The notes below the pieces were generated by a model that had not been told where the DNA came from, did no database searches, and was given only the letters and a program-made list of their open reading frames with translations. From IMG/VR virus record IMGVR_UViG_3300021171_000035, positions 1 through 32,826 of that record: DNA of 32,826 nt. The stretch is one strand, 5' to 3'. Positions 4,983-32,507 of the stretch are shown here, one piece after another; the stretch's first letter is position 1, and each line of letters starts with the position of its first letter. The stretch comes from a virus. The translations under genes were made by a program, and so were the position numbers.

Positions 4983-5113
4983 TGATTCCGCTGTGGCTGC
5001 AATATGTATGCGATGGGGCAGCATGGACCTGCTACCCGAGGGCGTGGCTGCAACCGTATAGTTGGTACATTTGGATTTGGCCTATGGCGGTGGTGAAATG
5101 GTCCAGCAAATAA
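4982..5113 (+). CDS. Trp-rich microprotein
   Basis: A 43-residue ORF starts at ATG 4982, sharing bases with the upstream stop (TGATG), with AGGG upstream, and ends at TAA 5111-5113 just inside the following fibre gene. Seven of 43 residues are Trp (LWLQY, AAWTCYPRAW, YSWYIWIWP). The C-terminal half is hydrophobic and could insert in or lie on the membrane. It fills the whole gap between the portal C-domain gene and the GH43-like fibre and overlaps the latter by 16 nt, a coupling arrangement. No family is recognised; compare the other Trp-rich microproteins of this window. Confidence 0.5.
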   Translation: MIPLWLQYVCDGAAWTCYPRAWLQPYSWYIWIWPMAVVKWSSK

Positions 5114-8100
5114 ACATCAACATGAACCCGCTTACGCCAGGCGTGCGTAATGCGCAGATGATCAATGATCCGCTATTTCCAAACGTGATCCCGTGCAATT
5201 TTAACGCCGACCCGACTGTACCCGGGGTGATGCAAGTCACCCTAACCGACGATCCCCTAGCGCCAAATCTGCTCTATTTCATCGATAGCGACGACACGAC
5301 GTTGCAGCCGCCTGGATTCCCTGATGTTCAAATCCTCGGAACTCTGATCGGAACTGGGCTTCTAGATACCGGCACAGGTGACGCTACGAACCTGCTTCAA
5401 TCCTCGCAGCAGTCGTTTAACATTCCGGTCGGGGATTGGGTCAATTCAGCGGTTACGACGATTGATACCATTGCAACCGATCCCCTAAGCACCACAACTG
5501 CCTCGACCATCACCGAAACGGCGGTAACATCGACCCACTATGTGCAACAAGGATTCCAGACCGCCGTCGTGACGGAGGTCTCGTTCTCGGTCTACCTGAA
5601 ACAGGGAATAAGGACACGGGCGCAGCTGTTTCTAAAAGACTCTATGACGACGACGAACAGCGCCACGGCAACGTTCGATCTCGCTGGCGGGGTGGTCGGA
5701 ATTGCTGCGGCAGCAGTCGGGACATGGACGACGCCTCTCGCCACCATTACGGCCGAGGCGAACGGGTTTTATCTCTGCACCCTTTCGGCCACCTTCACCG
5801 GTGGCTCAGGGAGCTACTTCTGCCTGGTCTACGCGGACAATAGCAGCGGCGTGTTAGGCTCAAGCATCAGTTACCTGGGCAGCACGGCGGGCGTCGCCCT
5901 GACGATATGGGGCGCGAAGGTCAACACTGGCGTTCCGGCCGCGTACACGGTCAAGAATACGAGCCTACTTGGCGCGGTCGGGACTACGGTTCAGCAACAG
6001 TTCCAGCCGAATGGGACAACTACGGCATTTTGGGGAACCCAGACGGATAACGCTTGGATAGGCTTCGATGCCGGGGTGCCGGTTCAGTGGACACGCTACC
6101 GGTTCGCGCCACGGCCCTCATCGGCCACAACCCAGACCTATCCGAACGCGCCGGACTACGCGGCGTTCATCGTCGGAACGGTCGTTCAGACCGATGTGGC
6201 GGATTCGACCTTTGCGACACCAACGCTCGCGGACACAATAACCGGCTCGCCCTATTATCCTCGTTATTGGTTGGCCGAACGGCCGATATCCGCTTCCCTA
6301 GCCCAAGCGCGCTATATCCGGATGAAGACTCCTTCAAACGTTTACGGCGGCATTTCCGCATTCCAGGTATTCGCCAAGATCGGAACGACAGCCAATGCGC
6401 GCCCGGTCGAACCTGTCATCACCCCTAACGGAGGGCGATATCCTGGGCTGACGACGCTCGTCACCATGCAGAGCAGCCAAGGGGCTAAGATCTATTACAC
6501 CATTGGCCAGGGCTCCACCCCCGCAGACCCGACCACCTCCAGCGCGCTTTATACCGGTTCGTTCAGCGTCACGATCTCGGCCGGCTCCTATGCTGTCGTC
6601 AAGGCGATGGCAAACATGGCTGGGCTCTCGACGCCTAACTCTACGGTCATAACCTCGGCCCCATACTACGGCTACGGCTACGCGCCGGCGGATAATTGGT
6701 ACGATCACATCGGCCAGCTAATCGAGGCCCACTCGGGGAGCATCATATGGGACCCAAATTCCAAGTACTACTATTGGATGGGGCAGTTTCAGAATATCAA
6801 TTCGATCCAGAGACCTGGGCATGTAGGAGAACCTAACGGGTTCCCTGATACTTTCTTGTATCGTTCAACTGATCTAATGAACTGGACGAATATGGGCAGT
6901 GTGTTGCCAAATGTGTCGCCTACCTTGTTCATTGGCGGCAGATATCACTTAATGTACAATGCGCTGAATAACAACTATGTTGTATGGCTGCAGCCGCAGG
7001 ATAATGCCGGTAACTCCACACTGTTCGAGGCTAACACCCCAATAGGAGGCGGCAACATACTGACCGGCTGGGCGTGGAACATGACGCCTATCATCTCCAA
7101 CACGTTCTACGATTACGACCTGTTTCTCGACAGTGACGGAATCAGTATGTATTGTTTTTGGCGCAACGGCATATCGACCGACATGAGAGTACAGCAACTC
7201 AATACCAGTTACACCGGGTTCACTGGTTCGCCTACGATCATTCCGTATGTGGACACTACGCGCGAGGGTCCCGCATTCTTCAAGTATCCCTATGCGGCAG
7301 GCGGTACGTACTTCATTGTCACATCAGTGAATATCCCATACGACTCAGTGGGAGTGGATGCAAACTTAAGATATATCGTGAACACTGGCGCGACGCCACT
7401 TGCCAATAACTGGACGCCTCTCGACGGCTCGCTTGCGTTTGCCTCAGATCCGTTCGGGGGCAATTACAACTTCCAACCGACCCATGCTTTCGTTCCGCAA
7501 GGCAAGGTTCAGCCGGTGATAATGGGAGACTTCTGGCATAATGACCAGAACTACAATAGCCGCTATGTCTTCGCGCCGGTTGTCTGCATAGGCCAGCAAA
7601 TGACGATTCAGACCCCTACCTCATGGGACCCGAGTCAGCTTGCATCGGCATACACTCTGAACACTCTCAATCTGACAGCTAATGCGTTCACCGCAGGAAG
7701 CGCACAAGGGACCGCAATAGGCGGTATACAGGGGACCTTCCAAAGCTCTGGGCTTGGCTTGCTCGACAGCCATGGCGGCGCGGTTCAATTGAGCGGGTTC
7801 AACCTTCAAGTTGGCCCCACGCCTCCCGCGGGCGCCGGAACGTTCAATATCACACTGCAGGAGACAATCTCACCAGGTACCAACTCACCGAACAATACGG
7901 TGCTGTCGATCAATGAAGTGGCGGCGGGCGGATATCTGAGCGGGGCGGTGTCAACCGGGACAACCACAACGTTCCTTAACCTGACCAGTCTAGGGAGTGT
8001 CGATTGGGCAGCCTTCGGCTACAATTCGAGCGCTGCCTCGATCGAGCGGAAGTCAACCGGCGGATCTCTGATAAGCACTCTTACTGCGGTCGGAGGGGTG

Positions 8101-8517
8101 CTTGCTAACTTCAACGAGGGAGTCAACCCACTTTATTCGTCATCCTGGCAGGATGGCAACGTCCATCCATCAGTCGCTAATGAAAACTATCTCGTTTACA
8201 ATTCCGGCGGCAATGGAACCGGCATGTCATTGACTGTGCCAGCTGGCATAAAAGTGCAAACACTGACATTGTATGTCACGGTTAGCTTCAATGCGGCGAC
8301 TTTAACACAGGGGAAGCTTACTGCGACATTGAGTGACGCCAGCGCCGGTCCGTACACTGATACATCGGTTCAAATGACCAATGGCGCGGCCAATCTGCTT
8401 GGCAGATATATTCTCACGTTTGCTGCCGCATCGAACAGCCAGACACTTACGGTAACGTGGGTGAACAACACAGCTAACTCACAGAATGTGCAACTATTTG
8501 CGGCAACTCTCAACTAA
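5098..8517 (+). CDS. Large virion fibre/spike with GH43-type beta-propeller (galactanase-like) domain
   Basis: ATG 5098 gives 1139 aa; the frame is open from TTG 5062 but GGTGG precedes 5098. The N-terminal part is beta-rich, with a discoidin/carbohydrate-binding-like stretch before residue 420 (ARYIRM, YGGISAFQVF), then a chitobiase-C-like Ig domain (PITP-type start, KIYYTIGQGSTP, LYTGSFSVTI). Residues about 530-840 match the GH43_24 exo-beta-1,3-galactanase plan: EAHSGSIIWDP (543-553), YYWMG, LYRSTDLMNWTNMG, YDYDLFLDSDG, REGPAFFK (acid candidate E723), NFQPTHAF (Q793, matching the Gln proposed as base in that subfamily), MGDFW (809-813) and SRYVFAP. The C-terminus is more beta domains. It likely binds and trims a host surface polysaccharide. 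The propeller region around 6760-7400 is locally richer in A+T, hinting at mosaic acquisition. Enzymatic specificity is inferred. Confidence 0.75.
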   Translation: MVQQININMNPLTPGVRNAQMINDPLFPNVIPCNFNADPTVPGVMQVTLTDDPLAPNLLYFIDSDDTTLQPPGFPDVQILGTLIGTGLLDTGTGDATNLLQSSQQSFNIPVGDWVNSAVTTIDTIATDPLSTTTASTITETAVTSTHYVQQGFQTAVVTEVSFSVYLKQGIRTRAQLFLKDSMTTTNSATATFDLAGGVVGIAAAAVGTWTTPLATITAEANGFYLCTLSATFTGGSGSYFCLVYADNSSGVLGSSISYLGSTAGVALTIWGAKVNTGVPAAYTVKNTSLLGAVGTTVQQQFQPNGTTTAFWGTQTDNAWIGFDAGVPVQWTRYRFAPRPSSATTQTYPNAPDYAAFIVGTVVQTDVADSTFATPTLADTITGSPYYPRYWLAERPISASLAQARYIRMKTPSNVYGGISAFQVFAKIGTTANARPVEPVITPNGGRYPGLTTLVTMQSSQGAKIYYTIGQGSTPADPTTSSALYTGSFSVTISAGSYAVVKAMANMAGLSTPNSTVITSAPYYGYGYAPADNWYDHIGQLIEAHSGSIIWDPNSKYYYWMGQFQNINSIQRPGHVGEPNGFPDTFLYRSTDLMNWTNMGSVLPNVSPTLFIGGRYHLMYNALNNNYVVWLQPQDNAGNSTLFEANTPIGGGNILTGWAWNMTPIISNTFYDYDLFLDSDGISMYCFWRNGISTDMRVQQLNTSYTGFTGSPTIIPYVDTTREGPAFFKYPYAAGGTYFIVTSVNIPYDSVGVDANLRYIVNTGATPLANNWTPLDGSLAFASDPFGGNYNFQPTHAFVPQGKVQPVIMGDFWHNDQNYNSRYVFAPVVCIGQQMTIQTPTSWDPSQLASAYTLNTLNLTANAFTAGSAQGTAIGGIQGTFQSSGLGLLDSHGGAVQLSGFNLQVGPTPPAGAGTFNITLQETISPGTNSPNNTVLSINEVAAGGYLSGAVSTGTTTTFLNLTSLGSVDWAAFGYNSSAASIERKSTGGSLISTLTAVGGVLANFNEGVNPLYSSSWQDGNVHPSVANENYLVYNSGGNGTGMSLTVPAGIKVQTLTLYVTVSFNAATLTQGKLTATLSDASAGPYTDTSVQMTNGAANLLGRYILTFAAASNSQTLTVTWVNNTANSQNVQLFAATLN

Positions 8518-8523
8518 GGAACT

Positions 8524-9924
8524 ATGCCAATGATACGGAATGGTTTGTTATTCAGTCTTCTATCCGTGATCCTTTGCCCCAGCTATGGTGAGGCGTGCGA
8601 GTCCAACACTTCAGTTATGAACACAATGGCTATTCAGAGCCCATGCGTCTCCAATTTGGATGGAACCGGATTCGTCATCACCCAGAATCAGGTTACGCCT
8701 CACGTGACTAACGTGCCGGTCGCGGATGCCAATATGTTCATTCCGGCAAGCACGGCGTTACCGGTCACGGTGCAGGCTCCAGGCGCTGAGAATGTGGAAG
8801 TATGGATGCACGGCGCACTGGCAAAGAGGCTGGTGTTCAGCAACGGCGTCTGGACTGGCACGGTGGACACAACCAAAACGCAGCTATGCGCGCCGCCGTT
8901 CCCTGGGTTCTGCAACTACGAAGGGCCGATGTTGATGGAGGTCCTGACATGGAATACGCCTCCGGGCGATAATTCTTTCACGGTGCACCTTGCCGCGTCG
9001 TTCGATGTATGGGTGCACAATACGCTCAATAGCTGGTATCCATTTATCACGCCCAAGGGTGCCGGTTCGATGCGGCAGGTTTTCTTTGATCGGTTTGGAA
9101 CATTAAACGCAGAAGCGTGCGGGGCTGGCGTATGGCCGAATTGCACAGCGCCCGCAACAGCGGCGGACGGCAAAACCTATTGGGAAAACAAGCCGCGCGG
9201 GGGAGACTTTGGAAACGCCGCGAACGAACATAGCGACGGGCCATACAATCCGTTCAACACCGTAATTGGATCAATCAATATGCTGCCAGGGCAAGTCGGG
9301 TTCCTGCGTATTCGATCGACTTATGACCCGAACTATGTCGATCCTTACGGGTTCAATCGGCACTGGCGCAGCGGGTTCCTGTCCACTGCATTCAATGATG
9401 GCACGTCCAACGTTCCGACCATGACGAATGGCGGCTATTGCGAGATCAGGGCCAAGGTTCCGAAGGCGGACGCGGCATGGAACACGGGCGCGAGCGGCGG
9501 CACCTGGCCGGCATTCTGGGCGCTCGATCGCGACGCAATCACCAACGGTTCGATCGGAAACGTCGAATGGGACATTACCGAAATGTATGGCGTCGATAGT
9601 TCCGTATGGCACAGCAATGTGCACAGCTACGCGCCAGCAACTGGACCAAACCAGGCCATTTTTGACGGGCGCCCTGACGTGACTGAGCCCGATCTATCCT
9701 TGGATTTCCACCGCTATGGGTTGCTTTGGACGGCCACGACCACAACTGCTTATTTTGACGATGTGCCATTTGGCTCATTGCCGATCAGCCAGTTTCCAAA
9801 TGGCAAGAAAATTAACCCGTATCTCCTGATCGATCTCCAGCAAGGCGGCGGCTGGCCATCTAACCCGCCTCCGGCCGGATATAACGACATGTGGATCGAT
9901 TACGTGAAGTGCTACGCGCCATGA
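8524..9924 (+). CDS. GH16-family endo-glycanase with signal peptide
   Basis: The 466-residue protein starts at ATG 8524 (a second ATG at 8530). The first 24 residues are a clear export signal (basic MIRNG, hydrophobic LLFSLLSVIL, cleavage near YGEA). The C-terminal half is a GH16 jelly-roll: GGYCEIRAKVPK, WPAFWALD, the catalytic E-x-D-x-x-E signature E348-W-D-I-T-E353 (nucleophile and acid/base glutamates), then DFHRYGLLWT and YFDDVPFG. GH16 enzymes cut beta-1,3/1,4-glucans or galactans. The N-terminal half has an Ig-like beta domain (VTVQAPGAENVEVW). It follows the GH43-like fibre by 6 nt, so the pair probably attack the same host exopolysaccharide. A Sec-type signal peptide is unusual for a virion part and suggests export from infected cells. 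Substrate unknown. Confidence 0.85.
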   Translation: MPMIRNGLLFSLLSVILCPSYGEACESNTSVMNTMAIQSPCVSNLDGTGFVITQNQVTPHVTNVPVADANMFIPASTALPVTVQAPGAENVEVWMHGALAKRLVFSNGVWTGTVDTTKTQLCAPPFPGFCNYEGPMLMEVLTWNTPPGDNSFTVHLAASFDVWVHNTLNSWYPFITPKGAGSMRQVFFDRFGTLNAEACGAGVWPNCTAPATAADGKTYWENKPRGGDFGNAANEHSDGPYNPFNTVIGSINMLPGQVGFLRIRSTYDPNYVDPYGFNRHWRSGFLSTAFNDGTSNVPTMTNGGYCEIRAKVPKADAAWNTGASGGTWPAFWALDRDAITNGSIGNVEWDITEMYGVDSSVWHSNVHSYAPATGPNQAIFDGRPDVTEPDLSLDFHRYGLLWTATTTTAYFDDVPFGSLPISQFPNGKKINPYLLIDLQQGGGWPSNPPPAGYNDMWIDYVKCYAP

Positions 9925-11789: not shown

Positions 11790-11829
11790 AGATCAGCGCA
11801 TGGCGGCCAGCCGAAACAGGCAATACGAC

Positions 11830-12189
11830 ATGAGTGAATCCAAAGCGGAAATTGGCGCCGACTGGATCGCATTGCGATCTATCCCGGAGCCGAATTCTGG
11901 ATGTGTCTTATGGCTAGGCGAACTCAATTCCGCCGGTTATGGGCGCATCAGCCAAGGCAACAATCATGTGGGAAAGCGCGTCAGGTATTTGGCGCACCGA
12001 GTCTCATATGAGCTTGCCAAAGGGCAAGTCCCTGAGGGGATGGAGTTGGACCACTTGTGCAGGGTTCGGTGTTGCATAAACCCCGAACATCTTGAGCCTG
12101 TCACGCGGTCCGAAAACAACCGTCGTGGCGATCTGATGAAGCGCCGTGATGTCCCTAGAGCCGAATGGCAGAAAAGGGGCATCTCATAA
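11830..12189 (+). CDS. Intron-encoded HNH homing endonuclease
   Basis: ATG 11830 gives 119 aa; an in-frame ATG at 11800 would add ten residues but has no ribosome site. The HNH motif is intact: AHRVSYELAKGQVPEGMELD, H-L-C-R, C-C-I-N-P-E-H-L-E-P-V-T, then S-E-N-N-R-R-G, with the metal-binding His/Asn/His and paired cysteines. Such enzymes cut intronless alleles near the insertion site and so spread the intron. The gene lies in a peripheral loop between the three 5' hairpins and the catalytic core, and its TAA stop (12187-12189) is inside the stem of the 12185-12207 hairpin, so gene and RNA structure are interlocked. Confidence 0.85.
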   Translation: MSESKAEIGADWIALRSIPEPNSGCVLWLGELNSAGYGRISQGNNHVGKRVRYLAHRVSYELAKGQVPEGMELDHLCRVRCCINPEHLEPVTRSENNRRGDLMKRRDVPRAEWQKRGIS

Positions 12190-16742: not shown

Positions 16743-18359
16743 ATGCTCCAAACCGCGATCTTTGACAAGTCCAAGCAGGAGCCGAGATCGCAAATCTCGA
16801 TCTCGCGGACGCTTGTTGCCCCTATCAAGGGCTGGTACGTAGGAAGCCCGCTCGCGCTAGCGCCAGACCAAACGGCCGTCCTCCTCGAGAATGCCTTTCC
16901 AGAAATTGACTTCGTGCGAGCTCGAGGCGGGGCTTCGGCGTTCGCTACTGGGATGCCAAACGCGGCCGTTGACACGCTCATGCCGTTTCGAGTCGGCGGG
17001 GCCTACAAAATGTTTGCCTCATGCAACGGCTCGATTTACGATGTGACGAACACGGGCGCCGTGGGCGCCCCGCTTGTGACCGGGTTAACCGCTGGCGCCA
17101 AATTCTCATATGTCCAGTTTGCAGCCACTGGCGTTCAATTTCTGCTCGCCGCGAACGGCGTAGATCCACTCCAAATCTATAACGGGACAACATGGGGCAC
17201 TACTCCTGCGATCACGGGCCTAACTGGAAGCCCACTAAATTACCTCTGGGTCTTTCAGAGCAATATTTGGGGCCTGCAACCTGGGTCGCTTAATGCTTGG
17301 TACCTGCCTGGATCTGCGATCGGTGGCGCTGTTTCTATCTACCCAATGGCACCGCTGTTTCGGCTTGGTGGGCAGCTAATAGCTGGAGGAACATGGACTA
17401 TTCAAACAACGGCAGGTTTAGAGTACGCGACAATCTTCGTTACGGATCAGGGAGAAGTTGCGATCTTTGCTGGTACTACGCCAGCTTTGACGTGGTCCCT
17501 TCAGGGCGTCTACAAGATAGCCCCACCGCTCGGCCCAAGGTGCATGTTGCAGGCGGGCGGCGATCTCGCGATCATGACCACAACCGGGATCATCCCGGTT
17601 TCTCAGGTCCAGACAGTCGATGAAATCGCGCTCGAAAACACATCACCAACGATCGCTATTTTGCCGGCATGGCAAGCTGCGGTTAATGCTCGACTTGGTT
17701 TAGCTGGGTGGCAGATTCTCGAATGGCCGCTGCGAACCATGGTCATCGTCAACATGCCTCAGACAACGTCGAGCCTGAATACCCAATTTATGGGCAATGG
17801 CCGAACTGGCGCATGGTGCCGATATATTGGGTGGGATGCGCAGTGTTTCGAGATTGGGGGAGCGAACCAGGATAAGCTATTTTACGGCACGTCGGACGGT
17901 CGGGTGATGCAGGCGGAATTTGGCGGCAATGATGACGGCAAGACCTACACCATGACGATATTTCCAAGCTTTACGGACATGGCCAAGACTGATTATGGCT
18001 TCCCCTCGTTGTCGCAGTCATCGGAGCGGAAGCAGACGAAATTGATCAGGCCGAGGATTCAGGCGAATACGCCGGTAGCGCCTAAGGTGACTATGCGGGT
18101 CAATTACGATCAGTCAATCCCTACCGCACCGTCTCCTTCCCAGCCTGGACCGGCTGGCGGGGCCTTGTGGAACGTGGCCGATTGGGGCGTCGATACATGG
18201 CCGCAACCGGCGTTCTTGTCGCAAAACTGGCTGCCCGCGTTCGCGGTCGGATCAACGATCTCGCCGGTCGTTCAGATGACTTTTGGGCAAACATCCTTGC
18301 CAATTGTCAATTTGACCTCTACTGATGTGCTTTTCGAGACGGGGAACCTTTTCGGGTGA
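16743..18359 (+). CDS. Tail/connector beta-propeller-like protein (tail completion)
   Basis: The 538-residue protein starts at ATG 16743 after CGGGG. It is beta-rich, with recurring F/Y-x-x-x-x-G-x-x-x-L-x-x-x-N-G units: KMFASCNGSIYDVTNTGAVG, FLLAANGVDPLQIYNGTTWG, YLWVFQSNIWGLQPGSLNAW, MLQAGGDLAIMTTTGIIPVS, DKLFYGTSDGRVMQAEFGGN. The N-terminus has a proline/Gly entry 'PIKGWYVGSPLALAPDQTAV' with 'LLENAFPEIDFVRARGGA', which I associate with tail-completion proteins acting like P22 gp10 or T7 gp12. It follows the adaptor gene directly, as expected for tail assembly order. The assignment is by layout, not by a catalytic motif. Confidence 0.65.
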   Translation: MLQTAIFDKSKQEPRSQISISRTLVAPIKGWYVGSPLALAPDQTAVLLENAFPEIDFVRARGGASAFATGMPNAAVDTLMPFRVGGAYKMFASCNGSIYDVTNTGAVGAPLVTGLTAGAKFSYVQFAATGVQFLLAANGVDPLQIYNGTTWGTTPAITGLTGSPLNYLWVFQSNIWGLQPGSLNAWYLPGSAIGGAVSIYPMAPLFRLGGQLIAGGTWTIQTTAGLEYATIFVTDQGEVAIFAGTTPALTWSLQGVYKIAPPLGPRCMLQAGGDLAIMTTTGIIPVSQVQTVDEIALENTSPTIAILPAWQAAVNARLGLAGWQILEWPLRTMVIVNMPQTTSSLNTQFMGNGRTGAWCRYIGWDAQCFEIGGANQDKLFYGTSDGRVMQAEFGGNDDGKTYTMTIFPSFTDMAKTDYGFPSLSQSSERKQTKLIRPRIQANTPVAPKVTMRVNYDQSIPTAPSPSQPGPAGGALWNVADWGVDTWPQPAFLSQNWLPAFAVGSTISPVVQMTFGQTSLPIVNLTSTDVLFETGNLFG

Positions 18360-18364
18360 TTAAA

Positions 18365-18445
18365 ATGTGGTGGAAATGGCAAAACGGCGTGCTTTGGTGG
18401 AACCCGCTCTGCGACGAGCTTTATCCTGGCTATTGGGGGGCATGA
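18365..18445 (+). CDS. Trp-rich microprotein ending PGYWGA
   Basis: A 26-residue ORF (ATG 18365, GGGTGA upstream, TGA 18443-18445) has six tryptophans (WWKW, LWWN, YWGA). Its C-terminal part G-x-L-W-W-N ... Y-P-G-Y-W-G-A matches the end of the minus-strand ORF at 32294-32148, G-x-L-W-W-S ... F-P-G-Y-W-G-A, about 14 kb away. That match across strands makes chance unlikely and supports coding. The stop is followed by ATG 18446 of the next gene, whose ribosome site (GGGGGG) lies within this ORF. Function unknown. Confidence 0.55.
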   Translation: MWWKWQNGVLWWNPLCDELYPGYWGA

Positions 18446-18604
18446 ATGATCAAGGTGTCGCAAAAGGCGAGTTTGGTTCCATTCGAGCGGGCTGCGGCGC
18501 GGATCTTGGCCAAGGTGGCGGCCGGTGCTGATATTGAGGTTGAGGTCGAAAACGAGTTTTGGAAAGCCAAAATAGCGAGAATGAATGACCGTAATTTGCG
18601 ATGA
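18446..18604 (+). CDS. Small helical protein, unknown
   Basis: A 52-residue ORF starts at ATG 18446 one base after the microprotein stop, with GGGGGG at 18435-18440 (spacing 5), and ends at TGA 18604. It is an Ala-rich helix followed by an acidic strand: PFERAAARILAKVAAGADIE, VEVENEFWKAKIARM. It overlaps the start of the GNAT-like gene (18585) by 20 nt. No family is recognised. Coupling on both sides supports expression. Confidence 0.5.
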   Translation: MIKVSQKASLVPFERAAARILAKVAAGADIEVEVENEFWKAKIARMNDRNLR

Positions 18605-18983
18605 CGAATCCGCCAAGGCGATAATTGAGGCGGCGCTTATTCGTAAGATATGCGAGCCATTCCGGGGGCTTGTGGTAAGGCGCGGTCTGGAGGTTATAGG
18701 GGCTATCGTCTTCAACAATTACGATGAGCTCGACGTTCATTTCACATGCGTCATGAACGCGCCGATCAGCATGAAGGATGCAAGGTATGTGGCAAGATAC
18801 GTATTCAAGCAGTTGGGTTGCAAACGGTGCACTGCCGTTACAAGTGAACTTAATCTTGCCGCCCGCCGCGCCCTTCTACAGCTGGGATTTAAGTTCGAGG
18901 GGCGGCTCCGTGAACATTTCGATGATGGCGACGGACTTGTCTATGGCGTGCTCAGGTCAGAGCAGAAAATCGTGAGACTATAA
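18585..18983 (+). CDS. GNAT-like acetyltransferase-fold protein
   Basis: A 132-residue protein. The C-terminal half, SELNLAARRALLQLGFKFEG then RLREHFDDGDGLVYGVLRSE, is the classic end of the GNAT fold: 'N-x-x-A-x-x-x-x-x-x-x-G-F-x-x-E-G-x-x-R' preceding the last strands. The N-terminal half has beta strands (VVRRGLEVIGAIVFNN, DVHFTCVM) compatible with the fold. The usual acetyl-CoA pyrophosphate loop (R/Q-x-x-G-x-G/A) is not clear; the region ARYVARYVFKQLGCKR stands in its place. GNAT-like genes are seen in tail/internal-protein regions of similar phages; targets are unknown. It may modify a host or virion protein, or be a non-catalytic structural relative. Confidence 0.7.
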   Translation: MTVICDDESAKAIIEAALIRKICEPFRGLVVRRGLEVIGAIVFNNYDELDVHFTCVMNAPISMKDARYVARYVFKQLGCKRCTAVTSELNLAARRALLQLGFKFEGRLREHFDDGDGLVYGVLRSEQKIVRL

Positions 18984-27310: not shown

Positions 27311-27796
27311 ATGATCACAGAGAAAAGACTTAAAGACTTTTTACATTACGATCCCGCATCAGGCGATTGGGCCTGGAGGAGATCGCTAGGTAGAGCGAGG
27401 GCTGGAGACCTAGCTGGCAACAAAGTGCATAACGGTTATAGGACTGTCTTCATCGATGGTGTCCGTCATTCTGCGCATAGGCTTGCCTGGTTCTACATGA
27501 CAGGAAAATTGCCGAAGTCTGAGATTGATCATATCAATATGGACCGCGCCGACAATCGGTGGGACAATTTACGCGTGGCGACAACCTCGCAAAACAAAGC
27601 TAACTCTGGCAAGCGTAGTAACAACACGTCTGGATTCAAGGGGATTTGGTGGCACAAGCGGGCAGGCAAATGGGCGGCCTCAATAATGGTTTCAGGAAGT
27701 AAGCGTTCATTGGGCCTCTATACGACGCCAGAGACCGCTCATGCAGCTTACACGGATGCCGCTAAGAAATATTTCGGGGAGTTCGCGAGGCCGTGA
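27311..27796 (+). CDS. Free-standing HNH endonuclease with AP2 DNA-binding domain
   Basis: A 161-residue protein. The HNH core is HRLAWFYMTGKLPKSEIDHI then NMDRADNRWDNLRVATTSQN (D-H ... N ... N-L-R), followed by NTSGFKGIWWHKRAGKWAAS, IMVSGSKRSLGLYTTPETAH and AAYTDAAKKYFGEFA, a complete AP2/ERF-type three-strand DNA-binding domain. This HNH-AP2 combination is a common mobile endonuclease type in phages. It has no intron features around it and is wedged between the collar-side small gene and the second fibre gene, so it is a free-standing homing endonuclease. Its DNA is locally richer in A+T than its neighbours, consistent with recent arrival. Confidence 0.9.
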   Translation: MITEKRLKDFLHYDPASGDWAWRRSLGRARAGDLAGNKVHNGYRTVFIDGVRHSAHRLAWFYMTGKLPKSEIDHINMDRADNRWDNLRVATTSQNKANSGKRSNNTSGFKGIWWHKRAGKWAASIMVSGSKRSLGLYTTPETAHAAYTDAAKKYFGEFARP

Positions 27797-31659: not shown

Positions 31660-32151
31660 ATGGCAATGCCTGAAAACATCCCTAACCCGGATCCGTCGCT
31701 TGCGACCAATGAGCGGCTTGCGAACGCCGTCGGGCTGATCGAGAGCCATCTTGGCCGTAATAGGGATGAGGCAAGGGGGTGGGTTGACGCGCTCCAGGTC
31801 TTGCTAGAGGAAAAAATCAGGAGCGCAGAGGACAAGACATCGAACCTTGATAGAGTGGTTCAGACCAGGCTCGCCGGAAGCGAGACGGCCCTCAATGCCG
31901 CTATGGCTGCTTCCGACAAAGTTGTGGCCAAGATTGAGACTGGGGGAGGGGCTATCATGGCCGAAATGAAAGCCAATTTTTCCAGGCAAATCGATTCTTT
32001 AAATGACAAGATCGAGGATCTAAAAAAGCGCGTCTTCGAGACCGGGGGCCAAAGGCAGGGCGTAAACCAGATGGTTACAATCATCATTGCTGGGCTATCG
32101 GCGCTTGCTGCGGTAGCCTCGATCATTATCGTGTTGTCTAAGGCTGGCTAG
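31660..32151 (+). CDS. Coiled-coil protein with C-terminal membrane anchor
   Basis: The 163-residue protein starts at ATG 31660, one base after the micropeptide stop; the frame is open from 31615. Residues about 20-135 form a long amphipathic helix (RDEARGWVDALQVLLEEKIR, SRQIDSLNDKIEDLKKRV) and residues 140-162 a membrane segment (VTIIIAGLSALAAVASIIIV). This plan (long coiled coil ending 'D-K-I-x-D-L-K-x-R' and a C-terminal anchor) is common in phage proteins of the lysis region; function is not settled. The TAG stop at 32149-32151 shares the palindrome CTAG with the stop of the convergent minus-strand gene. Confidence 0.65.
   Translation: MAMPENIPNPDPSLATNERLANAVGLIESHLGRNRDEARGWVDALQVLLEEKIRSAEDKTSNLDRVVQTRLAGSETALNAAMAASDKVVAKIETGGGAIMAEMKANFSRQIDSLNDKIEDLKKRVFETGGQRQGVNQMVTIIIAGLSALAAVASIIIVLSKAG
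32148..32151. other. Shared palindromic stop CTAG of convergent genes
   Basis: The plus-strand coiled-coil gene ends with TAG at 32149-32151 and the minus-strand microprotein gene ends with TAG reading 32150-32148. The two stops use the same CTAG palindrome, leaving no intergenic space and no obvious hairpin terminator between the convergent transcripts. Confidence 0.6.
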
Positions 32152-32294
32152 GCCCCCCAATATCCAGGGAACGGCACAAGCGACTGCTCGCTCCACCACA
32201 AGTCACCATCTTCGAATGACCAATGGTAAAAGAGCTCGCCGTTCTCCGCTCCGACCATCCATGAAAATCCTGGGCTCAAGCGAACTTGTTCCAA
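32148..32294 (-). CDS. Trp-rich microprotein ending PGYWGA (minus strand)
   Basis: A 48-residue ORF starts at TTG 32294-32292, immediately after the TAA of the upstream minus-strand gene, with GGAGGGG just upstream at good spacing; an internal ATG at 32258 would give 36 residues. The sequence includes SPGFSWMVGAENGELFYHWS then FEDGDLWWSEQSLVPF and the end PGYWGA. The last 19 residues align with the plus-strand 18365 ORF at G-x-L-W-W-[NS], at an aromatic before P-G, and over the identical P-G-Y-W-G-A. This is the strongest support that both microproteins are genuine. Function unknown. Confidence 0.55.
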   Translation of the reverse strand: MEQVRLSPGFSWMVGAENGELFYHWSFEDGDLWWSEQSLVPFPGYWGA

Positions 32295-32507
32295 TTACCC
32301 CTCCAGAATTTTGTCGATCATGGCTCTAAACACGGCTGCGGCGTCCCAAGCTAAGGCGTCATAGTAAGCGGCGTGTATCATTTCTTTCGTAGGCTCGCGG
32401 ATCGCGGCAATGGCGGCGCGAGCGGCGACCTCGAGGGTTTCCTGCGTTGTCTTCTGGTTTAGGGTGTCGCCAATGGCGTCGGCGGCGCGGGCAAGGAGTT
32501 CACTCAT
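32295..32507 (-). CDS. Small helical phage protein, unknown
   Basis: A 70-residue minus-strand protein overlapping the upstream gene in an ATGA junction (32504-32507). It is helical throughout: MSELLARAADAIGDTLNQKT, LEVAARAAIAAIREPTKEMI, HAAYYDALAWDAAAVFRAMI. The phrase 'A-I-R-E-P-T-x-x-M' followed by a helix ending 'x-x-R/W-x-A-M-I-D-x-I/A-L' recurs in small hypothetical phage proteins from early regions. No biochemical role is known to me. It is part of a three-gene minus-strand operon. Confidence 0.65.
   Translation of the reverse strand: MSELLARAADAIGDTLNQKTTQETLEVAARAAIAAIREPTKEMIHAAYYDALAWDAAAVFRAMIDKILEG

Follow-up and report, generated by a model that had tools for sequence, protein, structure and literature searches.

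The stretch of DNA analysed here (the window) comprises 32,826 nucleotides, positions 1 to 32,826 of the IMG/VR virus record IMGVR_UViG_3300021171_000035, and is a fragment of a soil-type tailed phage. Two very short open reading frames (ORFs) on opposite strands, referred to as copy 1 and copy 2, encode related tryptophan-rich microproteins and are located among the following features:

16743–18359, plus strand: neck/stabilisation-type structural protein, 48% identical to that of Bradyrhizobium phage ppBjS10J-1; upstream synteny anchor
18365–18445, plus strand: microprotein copy 1, 26 aa, MWWKWQNGVLWWNPLCDELYPGYWGA, stop; a homologue of copy 2 and of the third copy described below
18433–18448, plus strand: TTGGGGGGCATGAATG, in which the W-G-A-stop codons of copy 1 form the G-rich ribosome site and the stop/start junction of the next ORF
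18446–18604, plus strand: 52-aa ORF (MIKVSQKASLVPF...), directly 3' of copy 1
18585–18983, plus strand: GNAT acetyltransferase; downstream synteny anchor
31660–32151, plus strand: convergent gene, overlapping the stop codon of copy 2 by 4 bases
32148–32294, minus strand: microprotein copy 2, 48 aa, (TTG)LEQVRLSPGFSWMVGAENGELFYHWSFEDGDLWWSEQSLVPFPGYWGA, stop
32295–32507, minus strand: 70-aa ORF preceding copy 2, with GGAGGGGTAA at its end before the copy 2 TTG

The structural protein upstream of copy 1 has its nearest relative in Bradyrhizobium phage ppBjS10J-1, followed by Rhizobium, Sulfitobacter and EBPR podoviruses. PHROG 5107 labels this protein family "amidase", a name repeated in GenBank records of Sulfitobacter phages. 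Other records speak of a stabilisation, neck or tail tubular B protein, and "amidase" is probably a misannotation. The terminase of the window is about 40% identical to those of Pelagibacter HTVC010P-type, Methylophilales and Rhodoferax phages. Between head genes lie two adjoining genes that probably encode polysaccharide-degrading enzymes: the product of the first (5062–8517, plus strand), of 1151 aa, weakly resembles glycosyl hydrolase 43, and that of the second (8524–9924, plus strand), of 466 aa, contains a glycosyl hydrolase 16 domain. The structural region also contains two HNH_3 endonuclease genes (11800–12189 and 27311–27796, both plus strand), one of them with an AP2-like domain; both have relatives in G001, the otherwise unrelated phage introduced below.

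The two microprotein ORFs translate as the initial annotation had proposed, namely as a 26-aa plus-strand and a 48-aa minus-strand ORF with a common motif. In copy 2 the family core occupies the last 28 aa, preceded by an N-terminal extension of 20 aa. Its TTG start is preceded by GGAGGGG, and an internal ATG at residue 13, with AGGA upstream, provides an alternative start. The final 24 residues of the two copies align without gaps, being identical at W, G, L-W-W and P-G-Y-W-G-A and differing by the conservative substitutions W/F, Q/E, N/D and Y/F. In a six-frame scan of the whole window, each 24-mer retrieved the other copy with a BLOSUM62 score of 76, the runners-up scoring 27 and 31. Shuffled queries reached a mean of 26.5 (sd 5.5, maximum 64, n = 1000) and Markov-shuffled windows a mean of 24 (maximum 45, n = 200). 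Since the observed score exceeds both null distributions, the resemblance is not attributable to chance, which bears out the earlier remark that such identical endings are hard to explain otherwise.

A pattern fixing only WW and [FY]PGYWG, with a gap of 3–11 residues between them, was scanned against 2.9 million viral contigs in IMG/VR. Four contigs matched; three marine contigs were rejected because the two halves of the motif lay in different frames, so that this search, of the kind the initial annotation had suggested, yielded one further intact member. It resides in IMGVR_UViG_3300050821_008212 (G001; loci L003 and L008), a contig of 36.9 kb, and encodes 28 aa (MYYHWVFKEGDLWWWEESELLFPGYWGA) from an ATG start with TTGGGGGGC upstream. 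It shares 64% identity with copy 2 over 28 aa and 50% with copy 1 over 24 residues. Of the 20 positions that the pattern left free, 10 agree with copy 2, a number reached by none of 200,000 shuffles. The spacing LWW-x7-[FY]PGYWGA-stop is the same in all three copies, each of which thereby has the form G-x-L-W-W-x7-[FY]-P-G-Y-W-G-A-stop that defines membership; the A-stop ending and the exact 7-residue spacing lie beyond the search pattern. The N-terminal extension of copy 2 and the DNA preceding the G001 copy were no more similar than shuffled sequences (P 0.80). When the ORFs of G001 were compared with the window by blastp, the matches were limited to a pair of HNH proteins, a weakly similar terminase and a single stretch of 43 aa, and by this comparison G001 is a different, essentially unrelated phage.

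Searches of PHROGs, Pfam, NCBIfam and PADLOC gave no relevant match for the microprotein family, and a profile search of the PDB detected no relative at E ≤ 10; the sole Pfam match at E ≤ 10 was to an unrelated FmdE zinc finger (E 0.097). Against 50,697 phages, tblastn returned only chance matches (E 7–8), and none for the 28-aa copy; against plasmids, only chance matches to Streptomyces and Embleya (E at least 3) were obtained. Viral scans with either block on its own, C-terminal or N-terminal, or with a relaxed fixed-spacing pattern recovered nothing besides the G001 copy. Profile searches of Rhizobiales genomes and of two proteobacterial classes (about 1150 draws for the latter), covering several hundred genomes in each group, found no intact member, the single weak match having a frame broken by stops. 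Resemblances to WW domains, PWWP and CBM5/12 noticed by eye were dropped as they lacked statistical support. The known family consists of three copies on two viral contigs and is very rare among sequenced material. The description of an undescribed Trp-rich family stands, given the lack of any library match and the existence of a third member, but the family is far rarer than that wording implied.

A pattern scan of about 85,000 genomes gave only out-of-frame matches or convergence in Bacteroidales. The Bacteroidales proteins (loci L009–L061; about 215–235 aa), which we take to be DUF4136-like, possess a conserved aromatic stretch, WW-x-x-YPGYWYPGYWG. They resemble the family in the peptide WW...YPGYWG, but are more than 200 residues long and carry the motif internally, a convergent low-complexity match.

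Nucleotide differences separating the G001 copy from copy 2 are distributed 7/5/16 over codon positions 1/2/3, stop codon included (binomial P 0.008), the third position accounting for 16 of 28 changes. Once the eight pattern-fixed codons were omitted, the distribution was 7/4/13, and amino acid identity exceeded that of a neutral simulation (P 0.03). Different codons are used at 9 of 15 degenerate conserved residues, while GGG and TAT codons recur in all three copies. Start codons and ribosome-site-like sequences are seen at the microprotein ORFs, as read from the DNA. Given the excess of third-position changes in this closest pair of copies, translation of the frame is probable, on evidence that is moderate but not overwhelming; protein-level constraint on the family is present at modest strength, conservation being thinly sampled by three sequences.

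The genomic contexts of the three copies differ. In the window, 225 bp, consisting of copy 1 and the 52-aa ORF, separate the stabilisation gene from the GNAT gene. In all five phage relatives with the same gene order (Bradyrhizobium ppBjS10J-1, Rhizobium RHph_Y25, Sulfitobacter pCB2047-C, EBPR podovirus 2 and locus L007), the stabilisation gene is followed directly by the GNAT-type gene and the microgene is absent. In several alphaproteobacterial genome loci a GNAT-like match also closely follows a related stabilisation gene, with spacing that is not always resolved. Conserved flanks in these relatives, with the microgene missing between them, mark copy 1 as inserted cargo, as expected of a phage moron or accessory gene. 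The 52-aa ORF, an orphan for which a homologue search found nothing, may have been inserted together with it. Copy 2 lies in a minus-strand operon, where the convergent plus-strand gene over its stop codon leaves it with no coupled downstream gene; a consensus scan confined to the copy 2 region found no promoter or terminator, and host promoters may differ from the consensus used. In G001 the microgene is flanked on one side by a gene with weak phosphoribosyltransferase resemblance and on the other by a DUF1376 replication gene, which among phages is best matched in those of Rhizobium and Bradyrhizobium.

A microgene found in a late structural, a minus-strand and an early replication operon, and missing from the syntenic site in relatives, behaves as mobile accessory cargo would. 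The proposal that the family has moved is borne out by the third member in a different type of operon and by the empty site in the relatives. The initial annotation had named as counter-evidence the absence of the pattern at equivalent positions in related phages. Such absence is literally what was found, but it is expected for mobile cargo, as this test addresses vertical conservation, and the non-syntenic G001 copy confirms the family.

All three copies share a near-identical DNA ending, TATTGGGGGGC. In two of them, copy 1 and the G001 copy, TGG GGG GCN TGA abuts the next ATG and TGGGGGGC provides the ribosome-binding site for the gene that follows. The W-G-A-stop codons therefore double as a ribosome site, which partly explains the identical DNA ending. 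Copy 2 lacks a coupled downstream gene, yet retains PGYWGA, so its end is constrained as protein there. The ending singled out earlier as identical accordingly reflects protein-level conservation in copy 2, but in the other two copies is partly a ribosome-binding site. In G001, the gene preceding the microgene likewise ends in a ribosome site plus stop codon, and a perfect 14-nt direct repeat, TTGGGGGGCGTGAA, flanks the microgene (L008, 9987–10088; 88 bp apart), each repeat copy containing the ribosome site and the stop codon. This bracketing counts in favour of a mobile gene, and the repeat may have served the insertion.

This overlap raises the alternative that the microgene is a translation-coupling spacer, its end serving mainly as a G-rich ribosome site (TTGGGGGGC, stop, start) and its peptide having little or no function. 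Copy 1 and the G001 copy both end in TTGGGGGGCRTGAATG at the next start, as does the gene preceding the G001 microgene, and the GGG and TAT codons shared by all three copies would suit such a role. A ribosome site leaves copy 2, the W-x-[FW]..G-x-LWW block, PGY and the 7-residue spacing unexplained, the conserved residues contain synonymous changes, and such junctions are scarce in both genomes (1 and 4); we regard the spacer as unlikely. The position of copy 1 between two structural or assembly genes could instead indicate a minor virion or virion-assembly component, such as a small structural or decoration peptide. This is distinctly unlikely, since the microprotein is missing from all relatives with the same operon and its other copies occur between the phosphoribosyltransferase-like and DUF1376 genes and in the minus-strand operon.

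The tryptophan content invites two further explanations. With 5–6 Trp codons per core of 26–28 residues, tandem Trp included, the ORF could be a leader peptide that senses charged tRNA-Trp and attenuates a downstream gene. The region of copy 2 contains no terminator-like stem in our scan, nothing lies downstream of copy 2, the microgene is found behind unrelated genes, and the C-terminal hexapeptide is conserved, unlike in leader peptides, where only control codons are; attenuation is consequently highly improbable. A membrane-active or lytic peptide would likewise be rich in tryptophan and other aromatic residues, but family members have a net charge of −1 to −6, in contrast to cationic membrane peptides, lack a hydrophobic segment of membrane-spanning length and are not restricted to a lysis position, making this role very unlikely. 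Short aromatic-rich sequences can mislead, as the convergent Bacteroidales proteins illustrate, but given the null models and a third member, found independently, whose start, spacing and stop agree, the chance that two unexpressed ORFs merely happen to look alike is negligible. The structural, leader-peptide, membrane-active and coupling-spacer explanations all rank below a host-directed binder.

We favour a real, mobile family of phage microproteins, its three copies descended from a common ancestor, and consider such a family very probable. The two ORFs of the window are diverged copies with the core W-x-[FW]-x-[DEN]-G-x-L-W-W-x7-[FY]-P-G-Y-W-G-A-COOH, and the gene behaves as accessory cargo that moves across operon types. 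The W-x-[FW]-x-x-G-x-L-W-W block may fold as an acidic, aromatic beta-hairpin with a Trp-zipper-like turn; beyond a linker, the invariant C-terminal hexapeptide, PGYWGA, would lie exposed and act as the contact peptide. This peptide would dock onto a conserved host protein, in the manner of phage host-takeover or counter-defence microproteins. A host-directed binding function is proposed by analogy and only tentatively; movement between types of operon would also be consistent with other roles. The explanation as a whole, a mobile microprotein family combined with host-protein docking, is a reasonable possibility that falls somewhat short of probable. The low-confidence AlphaFold2 model of copy 2 (pLDDT 65, pTM 0.41) shows a beta-meander whose tail is unstructured, and Foldseek gave no match to viral models at E ≤ 0.001. 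PHROGs, Pfam, NCBIfam and PADLOC revealed neither similarity to a known inhibitor nor a neighbouring counter-defence gene.

Among known systems, the closest in kind are small phage proteins of host takeover, such as T7 Gp0.4 and lambda Kil acting on FtsZ, T7 Gp4.5 on Lon and Aqs1 on LasR (PMC11323111). Like the microproteins, these are tiny, accessory, phage-encoded and patchily distributed, and have no recognisable domain. They typically dock on a host protein, the analogy on which the docking proposed here is based, but are mostly longer, and a sequence relation to the family was not detected. The way in which Trp and other aromatic residues alternate about an [ED]-N/D/E-G turn (for example in W-K-W-Q-N-G-V-L-W-W) recalls trpzip peptides (e.g., trpzip2; PMC2705519, PMC12271999), a likeness read from sequence only. 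Trpzips are designed peptides of 12 residues with W-x-W in the second strand, whereas the family has L-W-W and a conserved C-terminal tail. Choline- or cell-wall-binding repeats of the LytA type (PMC4471590) also form a short aromatic beta-hairpin, W-x-[FY]-x-[DN]-G-x-[WL]-[WY]-[WYF]. Unlike those repeats, the family's motif is not tandem and has no wall-binding enzyme attached, and Pfam and PDB-chain profile searches identified no such repeat.

A more specific scenario is that a self-contained microgene of about 90 bp, equipped with its own 3' ribosome site in which W-G-A-stop supplies both the Shine-Dalgarno sequence and the stop/start junction, can insert between genes of any phage operon via microhomology at their junctions, sparing translation of the downstream gene while delivering a 26–28-aa peptide, with a Trp hairpin and a C-terminal docking end, against a conserved host target. 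We consider this scenario quite unlikely in its entirety. If the microgene does supply its neighbour's ribosome site, tiny cargo could enter tightly coupled operons without polarity.

The outcome is a mobile phage gene family, very small, rare and hitherto unlisted, which in kind is another phage accessory microprotein. An ORF of 26–28 codons, below the usual limits of gene calling, could be recognised as a mobile phage family from raw sequence, and its invariant C-terminal hexapeptide offers a ready bait for pull-down experiments.
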